A DNA stretch of 36,836 bases from an uncultured Erysipelotrichaceae bacterium (GTDB lineage: Bacteria > Bacillota_I > Bacilli_A > Erysipelotrichales > Coprobacillaceae), in assembly GCA_947074115.1 (NCBI GenBank), contig CAMTOK010000010.1, positions 1-36,836 on the forward strand. Direction: 5' to 3'. Both the position numbers and the translations under genes were made by a program. Numbering within the stretch: position 1 is the first letter of the stretch; every line of letters begins with the position of its first letter. Below, piece by piece: positions 16,323 to 19,920 of this stretch. Below the pieces are notes generated by a model. The model did not search any database. It worked only from the letters and a program-made list of their open reading frames with translations, and was not told the origin of the DNA.

Positions 16323-17357
16323 TTATAATAATCCCATTTCGATCATTTTTAATCCGATATCAACTGAATTATAGGCTGCACCTTTCATTAATTGGTCAGC
16401 AACAACCCATAAACTTAAACCATGATCATTATCTAAATCTTTTCTCACTCGTCCAACATGAACAAGTTCATCTCCAATGAATAAGTTTGCCATTGGATAG
16501 ATTTGGTCTGTGACATCATCATATAAATCTACACCATGAGAGTTTTGTAATAATTCAAATACTTTATCAATGTCGATTGGTTTTTTAGTTTCAATATAAA
16601 CAGATTCACTGTGTCCTCTTAAAACAGGAACACGAACACATGTTGCATTGACTTTAATATCTTTATTAAAGATTTTCTTTGTTTCATTAACCATTTTCAT
16701 TTCTTCTTTTGTATAATGGTTATCTAAATCAAATTTGTCTACCTGTGGTATACAGTTAAAAGCGATTGGATAATGTTTTTTATCACTTCCACAAGGTAAT
16801 GTTTTCGCAACAGGTTCTTCACCTTTAAGAACTTCTTCAGATTGTCTATAAAGTTCTTCCATACCCGCTACCCCTGCACCAGAAACAGCTTGATAAGTTG
16901 AAACAACGATTCTTTCAATATCAAAGTATTCATTTAAACGGTTTAATGCACTTACCATTTGAATCGTTGTACAGTTTGGGTTTGCGATGATTCCTTTGTG
17001 GTCTCTTAAAGCTTCGCCATTCACTTCAGGAACTACTAATGGAACATCCTTGTCCATTCTAAAGTGTGATGTGTTGTCAATGTTGATACATCCAGCTTGT
17101 ACAGCGAAAGGTACGTATTTTTCAGAAATGCTCCCTCCAGCACTCCAGAATGCGACATCAACACCTTCAAAAGAGTTTTCAGTTAATTCTTCGACAACAA
17201 AAGTTTGTCCTTCATATTCAATTTCTGAACCTGCAGAACGTGCAGATGCTAATAATTTTAAATTTTCAACTGGAAAATTAAATTGGAAGATACATCTGAT
17301 CATTTCTCTTCCTACTGCTCCTGTTGCCCCTACGACAGCGACATTGTATTTTTTCAT
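16323..17357 (-). CDS. asd: Aspartate-semialdehyde dehydrogenase
   Basis: Asd reduces aspartyl phosphate to aspartate semialdehyde with NADPH, the branch point to lysine/diaminopimelate and homoserine. The 344-residue protein has the nucleotide-binding loop VVGATGAVGREM, SAGGSISEKY, the active-site NPNCTTIQ with nucleophile C129, and YQAVSGAGVAGMEEL. Its length is typical of the Gram-positive type. It is last in hom-lysC-asd, 12 bp after lysC, with GAGGAAG as ribosome site. No dapA or thrB follows; the pathway splits elsewhere on the chromosome. Confidence 0.96.
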   Translation of the reverse strand: MKKYNVAVVGATGAVGREMIRCIFQFNFPVENLKLLASARSAGSEIEYEGQTFVVEELTENSFEGVDVAFWSAGGSISEKYVPFAVQAGCINIDNTSHFRMDKDVPLVVPEVNGEALRDHKGIIANPNCTTIQMVSALNRLNEYFDIERIVVSTYQAVSGAGVAGMEELYRQSEEVLKGEEPVAKTLPCGSDKKHYPIAFNCIPQVDKFDLDNHYTKEEMKMVNETKKIFNKDIKVNATCVRVPVLRGHSESVYIETKKPIDIDKVFELLQNSHGVDLYDDVTDQIYPMANLFIGDELVHVGRVRKDLDNDHGLSLWVVADQLMKGAAYNSVDIGLKMIEMGLL

Positions 17358-17369
17358 ATTTCTTCCTCC

Positions 17370-18599
17370 CTATCCTAAAAATGCTTCGTGTAATAATACT
17401 TGTGCTTTTTTAACATCTTGGCTATCAATAAAACAAGATATATTGATTTCACTACAAGATATCATTTCTATATTAATATCATTGTTCATTAAAGTGTTAT
17501 ACACTTTTTGGAACATCCCTTTATTGTTTTTAATACCGACACCAATAACGGCTACTTTTCCAATGTTCCCACGAACAATTGTTTTAGATGGTTTTAAAAC
17601 AGATTTCATATCATTAATAACATCAACAACACGATTAATATCCTTGTCATTAATAATTAAAGATATATCCATATGGCCACCACCGACAAGTGCTTGATTA
17701 TAGATATTGACGTTTACGCCTGCTTCTGAGATCTTTTCAAATAGATCACCAGCTGCATTTGTTTTAGCATCAACACCGACAAGTGTAATTCTCGCTTCAT
17801 TTTGAGAACCGGTAATACCAGATATTAATAATTGATCCAAGTGCTCTTTCATAATTATCTCATCTCCTAAAACATATGTCCCGATACTGTTATCAAAGGA
17901 ACTTCTTGCGTGTATTTTAATTCCGTTAGTGGCAGCAAGCTGCACACATCTGTGATTTAAAACTTTAGCGCCGTTTCTTGATAATTCTAACATCTCACTA
18001 TAACTAATATAGTCTAATTTAATAGCCTCTGGTACGATACGCGGATCGGCTGTATAGATACCATTGACATCGCTATAAATCTCGACTTCATCAGCATCGA
18101 TGGCAACGCCAATAGCGACAGCTGATAAGTCACTTCCTCCTCTACCCAATGTGGTGATTTTCCCATTTTGGGAATACCCTTGGAATCCTGGACAGATGAC
18201 TATATCTGATTCAAGTAGTTTGTTTAAGATGTGATGACCTTCGACAGATGTCACAGTCGCATCTTGATGCGTTGAATCAGTCATAATTCCTAGTTCACGG
18301 TTTGTCACCGTATCAACTTTATATCCTTGTGCACTTAATTCACTTTTGACGACCAAAGTAGAAATCGTTTCTCCAATACTAGACAAACGATCAATTTCTT
18401 CATCAGTCAGCAAATCGGTTTGAACGATGGATAAAAGTGTATCTGTTGCATATGGATCATCAAAACGACCCATAGCACTGACAACAGCGACAATTTTGTT
18501 TCCCTTAGAAACTTCACGAATAATGTTTTTATACATATTTTCGCGTGTTTCCACATTGCGTGTAGAGGTTCCTCCAAACTTCTGCACAATAACTTGCAT
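17370..18599 (-). CDS. lysC: Aspartate kinase
   Basis: Aspartate kinase phosphorylates aspartate, the first step of the lysine, threonine and methionine family. The 409-residue protein opens with VQKFGGTS (K7) and has GRGGSDLSAVAIG plus DVNGIYTADPRIV in the kinase domain (about 1-250). The C-terminal third holds two ACT regulatory domains (ITLVGVDA and KVAVIGVGIKNNKGM), so feedback control by lysine and/or threonine is likely; which one is not readable here. It begins one base after the hom stop, with GAGGGG as ribosome site inside hom, indicating tight coupling. Confidence 0.96.
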   Translation of the reverse strand: MQVIVQKFGGTSTRNVETRENMYKNIIREVSKGNKIVAVVSAMGRFDDPYATDTLLSIVQTDLLTDEEIDRLSSIGETISTLVVKSELSAQGYKVDTVTNRELGIMTDSTHQDATVTSVEGHHILNKLLESDIVICPGFQGYSQNGKITTLGRGGSDLSAVAIGVAIDADEVEIYSDVNGIYTADPRIVPEAIKLDYISYSEMLELSRNGAKVLNHRCVQLAATNGIKIHARSSFDNSIGTYVLGDEIIMKEHLDQLLISGITGSQNEARITLVGVDAKTNAAGDLFEKISEAGVNVNIYNQALVGGGHMDISLIINDKDINRVVDVINDMKSVLKPSKTIVRGNIGKVAVIGVGIKNNKGMFQKVYNTLMNNDINIEMISCSEINISCFIDSQDVKKAQVLLHEAFLG

Positions 18600-18600
18600 T

Positions 18601-19755
18601 TTAACCCCTCACTTTAAATAAGTTAGTTGTGTAACCTTTTAATTGCTCTTCTAATTCACTATATTCAATTTCATTAGTAATATAAATGTGATCTTTACCT
18701 TGAGAATAATAAGTATCATAATCAATATCGAGTGGTTGATCACATCTTACATAATAACGAGAGAATGTAATTGGATAGATAGCGTCAGTCTCGTTATAAT
18801 CATGAGACCAAACAGCTTGTTCATGAGTTTTCATAATATCACTCACAACAGCACTCGCAGTCACATAACGGCCAGCGCCTTTACCATAGAAAATAACGTT
18901 TTCTAAATAATTACATGAAATCTCTACGACATTATATGCTTGATTCACATTAGCGACTATGTCTTTTGTCCCGATTAATGTAGGCGAAACATCAATTCCA
19001 ATACCATTTTCTAGTTTTTTAGCCTGTGCAATTAATTTTATGCGGTAACCTAATGCTTTAGCATAGTCCATATCTAATTTAGTCACTTTTCTAATACCAG
19101 TTGCTTGTATTTTCTTATAATCAAAGAAGACTTCAAATGCATTCATAGCAAGAATTTGAATCTTGTGTGCAGCGTCAATCCCATCAAGATCTAAGCTTGC
19201 ATCAGCTTCAACAAATCCTAAACCATCAGCAATTGTTAATGCTTCATCAAAATCTAAATTATCTGTTTCCATTAATGTTAAGATAAAGTTTGTTGTACCA
19301 TTTAAGATACCCTCTATCTTTTTAATTTCATTTGCGATTAAGTTTTCTTTTGCAGGGGCAACAACAGGAATTCCACCACCAACTGCAGCTTCATAATAGA
19401 TTTTTGCATTATTTAAAGCTGCCACTTTAAATATTTCTTGTCCATCATGAGCAATTAATGCTTTGTTAGCAGTGACAACATTCTTACCACGTTTAAGGGC
19501 TTCAAGAATGATTGTTTTTGCGATTGTTGTGCCACCGATCAATTCTACAACAGTATCAACTTCATCATCATTGATAATGTCTTTATAATCTGCTGTATAA
19601 ATGATGCCTTCTGGTAAATCCATGTCGTCTAATGAACAACCATATTTAATAACGACTTCTTCACCAATTGTTTTCTCTAATCTTTCTTTTTGTTCTGTAA
19701 GAATTTCAACAACACCATATCCTACAGTACCTAGTCCAATAATACCTATCTTCAT
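18601..19755 (-). CDS. hom: Homoserine dehydrogenase
   Basis: Hom reduces aspartate semialdehyde to homoserine. I start it at ATG 19755 (MKIGIIGLGTVGYG) behind AAGGGGGA; an upstream in-frame extension of 10 codons would overlap the attenuator and has no ribosome site. The 384-residue protein shows the Rossmann loop GLGTVGYG, NVVTANKALIA, YEAAVGGGIPVV and ILNGTTNFILT, followed by the catalytic region with GFVEADASLDLDGIDAAHK. A C-terminal region of about 60 residues after KGAGRYVTASAVVSDI is shorter than a full ACT domain, so it may be insensitive to threonine feedback. It leads the hom-lysC-asd operon. Confidence 0.95.
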   Translation of the reverse strand: MKIGIIGLGTVGYGVVEILTEQKERLEKTIGEEVVIKYGCSLDDMDLPEGIIYTADYKDIINDDEVDTVVELIGGTTIAKTIILEALKRGKNVVTANKALIAHDGQEIFKVAALNNAKIYYEAAVGGGIPVVAPAKENLIANEIKKIEGILNGTTNFILTLMETDNLDFDEALTIADGLGFVEADASLDLDGIDAAHKIQILAMNAFEVFFDYKKIQATGIRKVTKLDMDYAKALGYRIKLIAQAKKLENGIGIDVSPTLIGTKDIVANVNQAYNVVEISCNYLENVIFYGKGAGRYVTASAVVSDIMKTHEQAVWSHDYNETDAIYPITFSRYYVRCDQPLDIDYDTYYSQGKDHIYITNEIEYSELEEQLKGYTTNLFKVRG

Positions 19756-19885
19756 TCTAATCCCCCTTAATATAAAAAACCTCATTTTTAATGAGGTCTT
19801 CTTTATGACATAAACAAGACATTCTCTTTTTTTAGTTGTTAATATATCTAACTCTATTAATCGAAGAAATGTCCTCCTTTATTTT
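19756..19885 (-). ncRNA. Attenuator-type leader of hom-lysC-asd
   Basis: About 130 nt lie between the predicted start point and the hom ATG. The leader opens with a strong AAAGGAGGA that is not followed by ATG, GTG or TTG. GACATT (19873-19868) can pair with AATGTC (19823-19818), while the latter GTCTT can instead pair with AAGAC further on. Just before the hom ribosome site stands a terminator. No T-box (AGGGTGG core) or lysine riboswitch consensus is seen. Confidence 0.5.
19774..19797 (-). terminator. Terminator hairpin in the hom leader
   Basis: On the minus strand, ACCTCATT (19797-19790), a 3-base loop and AATGAGGT (19786-19779) form a perfect 8-bp stem followed by a T run (to 19774). It lies between promoter and hom, as attenuators do. 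Confidence 0.85.
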
Positions 19886-19891
19886 GGAAAG

Positions 19892-19920
19892 ATAATAGCA
19901 TTTTTGTATACATTTGTCAA
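19892..19920 (-). promoter_or_regulatory. Sigma-A type promoter of hom-lysC-asd
   Basis: A perfect TTGACA (19920-19915), a 17-bp spacer and TATTAT (19897-19892) on the minus strand. The start point should fall near 19885. Confidence 0.85.

Follow-up and report, generated by a model that had tools for sequence, protein, structure and literature searches.

A start-less copy of a family-wide transcription attenuator probably precedes hom in an uncultured Erysipelotrichaceae bacterium

The stretch directly upstream of the hom-lysC-asd operon in an uncultured Erysipelotrichaceae bacterium is, in our reading, its species' start-less copy of a transcription attenuator that stands before hom across a bacterial family; we give this reading, which rests on the comparison of sequences, a probability of about 0.72. 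The copy lies within the 36,836-nucleotide stretch of DNA analysed as a whole, hereafter the window. It retains the promoter, the Shine-Dalgarno sequence (SD), three pairing regions and the terminator, whereas the canonical start codon and the Thr and Met codons have been lost.

In most relatives, a ribosome would bind the SD and translate a short peptide rich in Thr, Ile and Met. Were the ribosome to run through, region 1, which holds the SD and start, would pair with region 2, the terminator would form and hom would be off. An early stall on a Thr, Ile or Met codon would leave the ribosome covering region 1, whereupon region 2 would capture region 3, the 5′ arm of the terminator, and hom would be read. 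We infer these steps of stalling and read-through; the leader open reading frames (ORFs), codon bias, pairings, terminator and covariation described below were computed.

Results

The operon and its leader

Homoserine leads to Thr, Ile and Met, and the pathway to Lys splits off earlier. Pfam searches agreed with the gene calls of a first-pass annotation made from the sequence alone, which had named hom, lysC and asd. The operon and the leader elements are as follows.

18601-19755, minus strand: hom, homoserine dehydrogenase, first gene of the operon (Pfam; ATG at 19755)
17370-18599, minus strand: lysC, aspartate kinase with ACT domains (Pfam)
16323-17357, minus strand: asd, aspartate-semialdehyde dehydrogenase (Pfam)
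19892-19920, minus strand: sigma-70-type promoter TTGACA-17-TATTAT (-35 at 19920-19915, -10 at 19897-19892; direct reading)
19872-19880, minus strand: orphan SD AAAGGAGGA; many relatives have an identical or nearly identical sequence as the SD of a leader ORF
19863-19879, minus strand: region 1, the SD and the next bases, pairing with region 2 (pairing tests, alignment)
19810-19826, minus strand: region 2, GAGAATGTCTTGTTTAT, partner of region 1 or region 3 (pairing and switch tests)
19793-19806, minus strand: region 3, overlapping the terminator 5′ arm (pairing tests)
19774-19802, minus strand: intrinsic terminator (core CCTCATT-AAA-AATGAGG at 19796-19780; T tract 19779-19774)

Reading of the minus strand found TTGACA-17-TATTAT where the first-pass annotation had put it, together with the perfect 8-bp terminator that it had described just before hom, a ACCTCATT/AATGAGGT hairpin (19797-19779) that runs into a T tract. 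Its two competing short pairings were also found, namely GACATT at 19873-19868 with AATGTC at 19823-19818, and GTCTT at 19820-19816 with AAGAC at 19800-19796. Reading and a scan of the 4-13 nt after GGAGG bore out its remark that AAAGGAGGA is followed by no usual start codon: ATG, GTG and TTG are absent from this span, and the first of them to appear further on is the ATG at 19822. The leader fold had a z score of -2.1, a value equalled by 6 of 200 dinucleotide shuffles. Region 3 resembles the SD side (AAAGAAGAC versus AAAGGAGGAC in the window); in several leaders it could pass for a duplicate of that side, as with AGGACC, read twice in G062.

The leader matches no known RNA class

A search of the hom leader against the Rfam covariance models, including Thr_leader, T-box (RF00230), lysine and SAM riboswitches, gave nothing at the gathering cut-off and five matches up to E = 10, all at chance level (best E 0.19) and neither Thr_leader nor T-box among them. 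This agrees with the earlier remark that neither a T-box nor a lysine riboswitch core is visible. T-boxes are a usual means by which Firmicutes couple amino-acid genes to tRNA charging, and RF00230, absent from the hom leader, has 22 matches in the same genome, all on contigs other than that of the window. A structured intergenic stretch before a biosynthetic operon might suggest a new riboswitch binding a ligand or tRNA; we consider this very improbable, given the lack of an Rfam match, an alignment that has no conserved unpaired core outside the SD and the pairing arms, and the leader peptide that relatives have instead.

Relatives carry leader ORFs rich in Thr, Ile and Met codons

Our own placement suggests that the genomes compared form a Coprobacillaceae-like family, to which Faecalibacillus intestinalis and a strain of [Clostridium] spiroforme appear to belong. 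An alignment scan of hom in named genomes yielded mostly distant hom genes, with 3 of 80 loci close. DNA matches to hom plus leader came from 30 of 60 genomes, and from 32 of the 43 family genomes (the window's own included), a set that holds a single genome from the window's genus; the hom protein was present in 40 of these 43, again counting our own. Leaders were scored in 32 of the 40 genomes with hom, the leaders and their SD anchors being chosen by eye; in one genome, G062, the hom match is broken. The eight unscored leaders are those of G026, G017, G014, G010, G015, G008, G004 and G019, and in the last six of these hom was seen by eye to follow shortly after its promoter, without such a leader. 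Upstream of hom in G026 and G017 (L132, L133) stands a different hairpin, AGAAGC...GCTTCTTTTT followed by a T tract and with a short frame inside, which is perhaps another attenuator.

In 25 of the 32 scored leaders, an ATG or TTG lies 6-11 nt past the SD core and opens an ORF of 7-44 codons; examples of the encoded peptides are MMTIITIIDAFNK, MMITINISKTIMCFLNC, MLSMGISLTITITSNSIITPIK and MIIHMTV. Thr, Ile and Met together account for 173 of the 375 codons in these 25 leaders, against 77 ± 7.5 expected from stop-free shuffles of the same bases, a count that 0 of 2000 shuffles reached. The excess persisted with one leader per genus (n = 10; 61 of 138 codons versus 28.6 expected), and the two alternative frames of these leader sequences contained 40 of 313 and 34 of 346 such codons. 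Neither Lys (27 versus 26.7 expected) nor Asn (18 versus 28.4) was enriched among the 375 codons.

These data bear on the earlier proposal of an unclassified attenuator that senses an amino acid of the aspartate family or the corresponding tRNA. For the lineage, its core stands: ahead of hom, relatives combine a leader peptide rich in Thr, Ile and Met with alternative pairing and a terminator, which points to an aspartate-family attenuator. An unclassified sensor and the sensing of Lys do not fare as well, the mechanism indicated being the known ribosome-mediated one and Lys codons not being enriched.

Among the relatives, G030 (L129) has a Thr-rich leader frame, MITTTMTR..., whose 42 codons run through the terminator and overlap the hom start, so that translation of this leader could be coupled to that of hom.

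The remaining seven leaders lack the combination of SD and canonical start. Four of the 32 have the SD only (the window, G022, G028 and G032) and three (G034, G025 and G060) have lost the SD core and kept the 1:2 helix. The leaders form a natural gradation from intact copies, Thr-rich and opened by AUG, to start-less ones, on which one may test if an attenuator survives the loss of its peptide and, if so, what it senses.

Exclusive pairings, a predicted switch and covariation

Pairing was assessed with region 1 taken as the 24 nt from the SD and with 300 shuffles of the middle region; the resulting p values stand per leader, relatives not being independent. The 1:2 pairing reached p up to 0.05 in 15 of the 32 leaders (window, 0.027). 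The 2:3 pairing was weaker, reaching that level in just 4 of 32 (window, 0.007), and in the leaders of genus g8 it was at shuffle level (p 0.26-0.48). In 27 of 32 leaders the best 1:2 pairing and the best 2:3 pairing overlap in the middle region; in the other 5 they have no base in common.

For the switch test, the transcript was folded up to the terminator loop with the first 34 nt masked, as by a ribosome at the leader start. Averaged over the 32 leaders, the predicted pairing between the terminator 5′ arm and upstream sequence was 0.39 with region 1 free and rose to 0.73 with it masked. In 21 of them, at most 5 of 100 middle shuffles reached the observed rise, and 11 do not stand out. The rise stood out in five of the seven leaders without SD plus canonical start, the window among them (0 of 100 shuffles). 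A 44-nt mask abolished the switch in G025 and G060; the window's rise was independent of mask length between 18 and 46 nt. The window's predicted switch is small, from 0.52 to 0.68, since its 2:3 hairpin (GAG/CTC, GTCTT/AAGAC, TTTAT/ATAAA) is already half formed while region 1 is free. When the full window leader was folded, the terminator state came to -25.1 kcal/mol, compared with -16.0 kcal/mol with 2:3 forced; since the terminator state is favoured, antitermination would need a kinetic basis, as in known attenuators.

Comparative folding of related hom leaders, which the first-pass annotation had proposed as a check, indicated that the 1:2 pairing and the terminator covary. The alignment comprised 14 of the 15 leaders of the clade, G021 being omitted for an upstream region that is partly unreadable. 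Across these 14 leaders, 88.3% of cells in the 1:2 helix and terminator pair, falling to 40-54% when the arms are slid by 1-3 columns. Two-sided changes occur in 5 of 19 pairs, two in helix 1:2 and three in the terminator, a count reached by 8 of 500 shuffles.

The window copy has lost the leader start

In the window, mutually exclusive 1:2 and 2:3 pairings and an intrinsic terminator before the first gene are present; an ORF with SD and canonical start, and leader codons enriched for the end products, are not. With the canonical leader ORF and the regulatory codons gone, we file the window copy as a derived variant and not as a full ribosome-mediated attenuator. Two frames were considered in the leader.

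19832-19861, minus strand: putative AUU-started frame of 9 codons plus TAA, its AUU 11 nt after GGAGG
19757-19822, minus strand: 21-codon frame reported by the first-pass annotation, ending one base before the hom ATG

The 21-codon frame crosses the terminator and ends one base short of hom, exactly as had been reported. As a leader peptide it was rejected: it has no good SD, its ATG lies within region 2 and aligned relatives do not share it, and for these reasons it is most likely a coincidence.

The AUU frame occupies the site of the relatives' leader ORF, and among the eight codons that follow its AUU a single one encodes Thr, Ile or Met. The idea that the window copy itself senses an amino acid is therefore not upheld, as it has no canonical leader start and this codon content. 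Conceivably, translation of the leader ORF persists with the AUU at 19861 as its start, leaving a ribosome-mediated attenuator whose translation is weak and limited by initiation. The AUU sits at the same site as the relatives' start codons behind a strong SD; G022, G028 and G032 have an AUU 7 nt after GGAGG; and excerpts of a study of Staphylococcus aureus cvfC1 provide a precedent in a mapped AUU start behind an extended SD (PMC13009471). The window's spacing of 11 is nevertheless long, although SD-to-start spacings of 10-11 are found in some relatives, and by a rough estimate DNA this rich in A and T would carry an AUU by chance in about 3 of 10 spans of 6 nt. Moreover, the frames are not rich in Thr, Ile or Met in the window, G022 and G032, and their codons vary between lineages. 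On these grounds, translation from the AUU seems unlikely to explain the copy.

An assembly artefact might also account for the missing start. The genome is a draft of 177 contigs and a single base change turns AUU into AUG; start loss, however, recurs in other genomes and the AUU frame lacks Thr codons as well, so that a start codon concealed by an assembly error is scarcely probable.

On a tree of hom from 20 genomes, the start-less label needs five changes, at least three of them forced by well-supported branches; the window genome is not firmly placed within its clade on this tree. The start-less leaders of G022 and G032 are identical at 117 of 125 positions (94%), and fourfold-degenerate hom sites at 73 of 123 (59%). 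In 40-nt bins, identity between these two is 0.93-0.97 from -140 to -21 and 0.65-0.97 elsewhere. The contrast is less marked between G022 and G028 (leader 101 of 129 with gaps; fourfold sites 66 of 126). Leader identity so far above that of fourfold hom sites in G022 and G032 argues against mere decay of the start-less copies. Compared with the leaders of G005 and G018, that of the window is identical at 50-52% of positions when gaps are counted and at 62-65% without them, beside 50% at fourfold sites; these being the closest genomes compared, we make no claim of constraint for the window copy.

It is a real possibility, if somewhat short of an even chance, that the window copy is a relic that has lost its peptide and no longer switches, its terminator merely holding read-through into hom at a constant partial level. 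The absent start codon, an AUU frame without Thr or Met codons, the low identity to G005 and G018 with gaps counted, the small predicted switch amplitude and the repeated loss of the start all agree with a relic. Regions 1-3 of the window, however, pair better than shuffles, and the start-less leaders of another genus are strongly constrained.

Alternatively, the orphan SD could itself be the sensor, start-independent 30S binding masking region 1 and preventing termination, so that hom would track ribosome availability. The SD is intact in the window genome (G000), G022, G028 and G032 despite the absence of a canonical start, and in the window model masking the first 18 nt alone suffices. Helix 1:2 also needs the SD bases, though, which would be enough by itself to keep them, and G034, G025 and G060 have lost the SD core yet kept the helix; we regard this sensor as decidedly unlikely.

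Under the preferred reading, that of a start-less copy of the family attenuator, the window copy most likely continues to end a fraction of the transcripts ahead of hom. SD occupancy, by 30S binding or by weak AUU initiation at 19861, would be its sole remaining ribosome input, and its amino-acid specificity is for that reason probably weakened or gone. That start-less switches still work, with SD binding or AUU initiation and not codon stalling deciding between terminator and antiterminator, is a tentative and rather doubtful suggestion.

Comparison with known attenuators

Leader-peptide attenuators are familiar in Proteobacteria and less documented in Firmicutes. In Escherichia coli, thrL is the leader of a homoserine dehydrogenase operon, with Thr and Ile codons and mutual exclusion of terminator and antiterminator. 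The relatives' leaders resemble it in the operon they precede, in their Thr and Ile codons and in their exclusive structures. They differ in that their ORFs are also rich in Met and that the SD and start themselves form region 1; the window copy differs further in lacking a canonical start, and it has no match to the Thr_leader covariance model.

Among Firmicutes, his leader-peptide attenuators have been predicted, in six Erysipelotrichales species among others, according to excerpts of PMC9413887, and the hisS and hisZ leaders of bacilli are likewise predicted attenuators in excerpts of PMC2965389. Both sets, one of them in Erysipelotrichales, share amino-acid-specific leader peptides with the present family. 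As far as those excerpts go, they concern another amino acid and other genes, and have a run of one codon where the leaders here mix Thr, Ile and Met. The S. aureus ilvD attenuator, in excerpts of PMC5794164, is a further Firmicute combination of leader peptide, terminator and alternative structure, backed by suppressor mutants. Its peptide is leucine-rich, and its proposed antiterminator pairs with the terminator U tract and leaves the stem intact, unlike the 2:3 pairing here.

In the open-access literature that we searched, no leader peptide for hom or for threonine was seen described from Firmicutes. The present leaders would add a leader-peptide attenuator of the Thr/Met/Ile branch across a Firmicute family, in which the window genome also has its 22 T-box matches.

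A palindrome in the promoter spacer

The promoter contains one further element.

19905-19912, minus strand: palindrome TGTATACA inside the promoter spacer (19912-19905; sequence reading)

Of the 40 family genomes, 21, the window genome among them, have TGTATACA upstream of hom; it sits within the promoter spacer of the window and of the relatives inspected by eye. An automatic promoter caller had put several promoters in the wrong place. A protein-based second control of hom through this palindrome is possible. A spacer operator as sole regulator was rejected: TTGTATACAA is at control frequency genome-wide, being no commoner than its reversed control in seven of eight genomes and counting 14 versus 12 in the eighth, which argues against a genome-wide regulon.

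Relatives in g4 and g12, L143 among them, carry TGTATACA, several in the form ATTGTATACAAT. In G011, a second copy of TGTATACA faces a divergent thrC. In the window's own genome, the 500 bases upstream of thrC, read by eye, hold no leader comparable to that of hom.

In the sister family f2, where 61 genomes had a hom match, inspection by eye upstream of hom in 20 of them revealed no such leader. In 17 of these 20 upstream regions (L163-L182), ACAAGTGT(A/T)T directly follows the hom -10 element. The motif is part of a palindrome-like ACAAGTGTTTTTnnnAAAGACA, unlike the palindrome of the window's family, and in at least 14 of the 20 a divergent frame resembles the start of threonine synthase. The f2 palindrome is probably a repressor operator common to thrC and hom.
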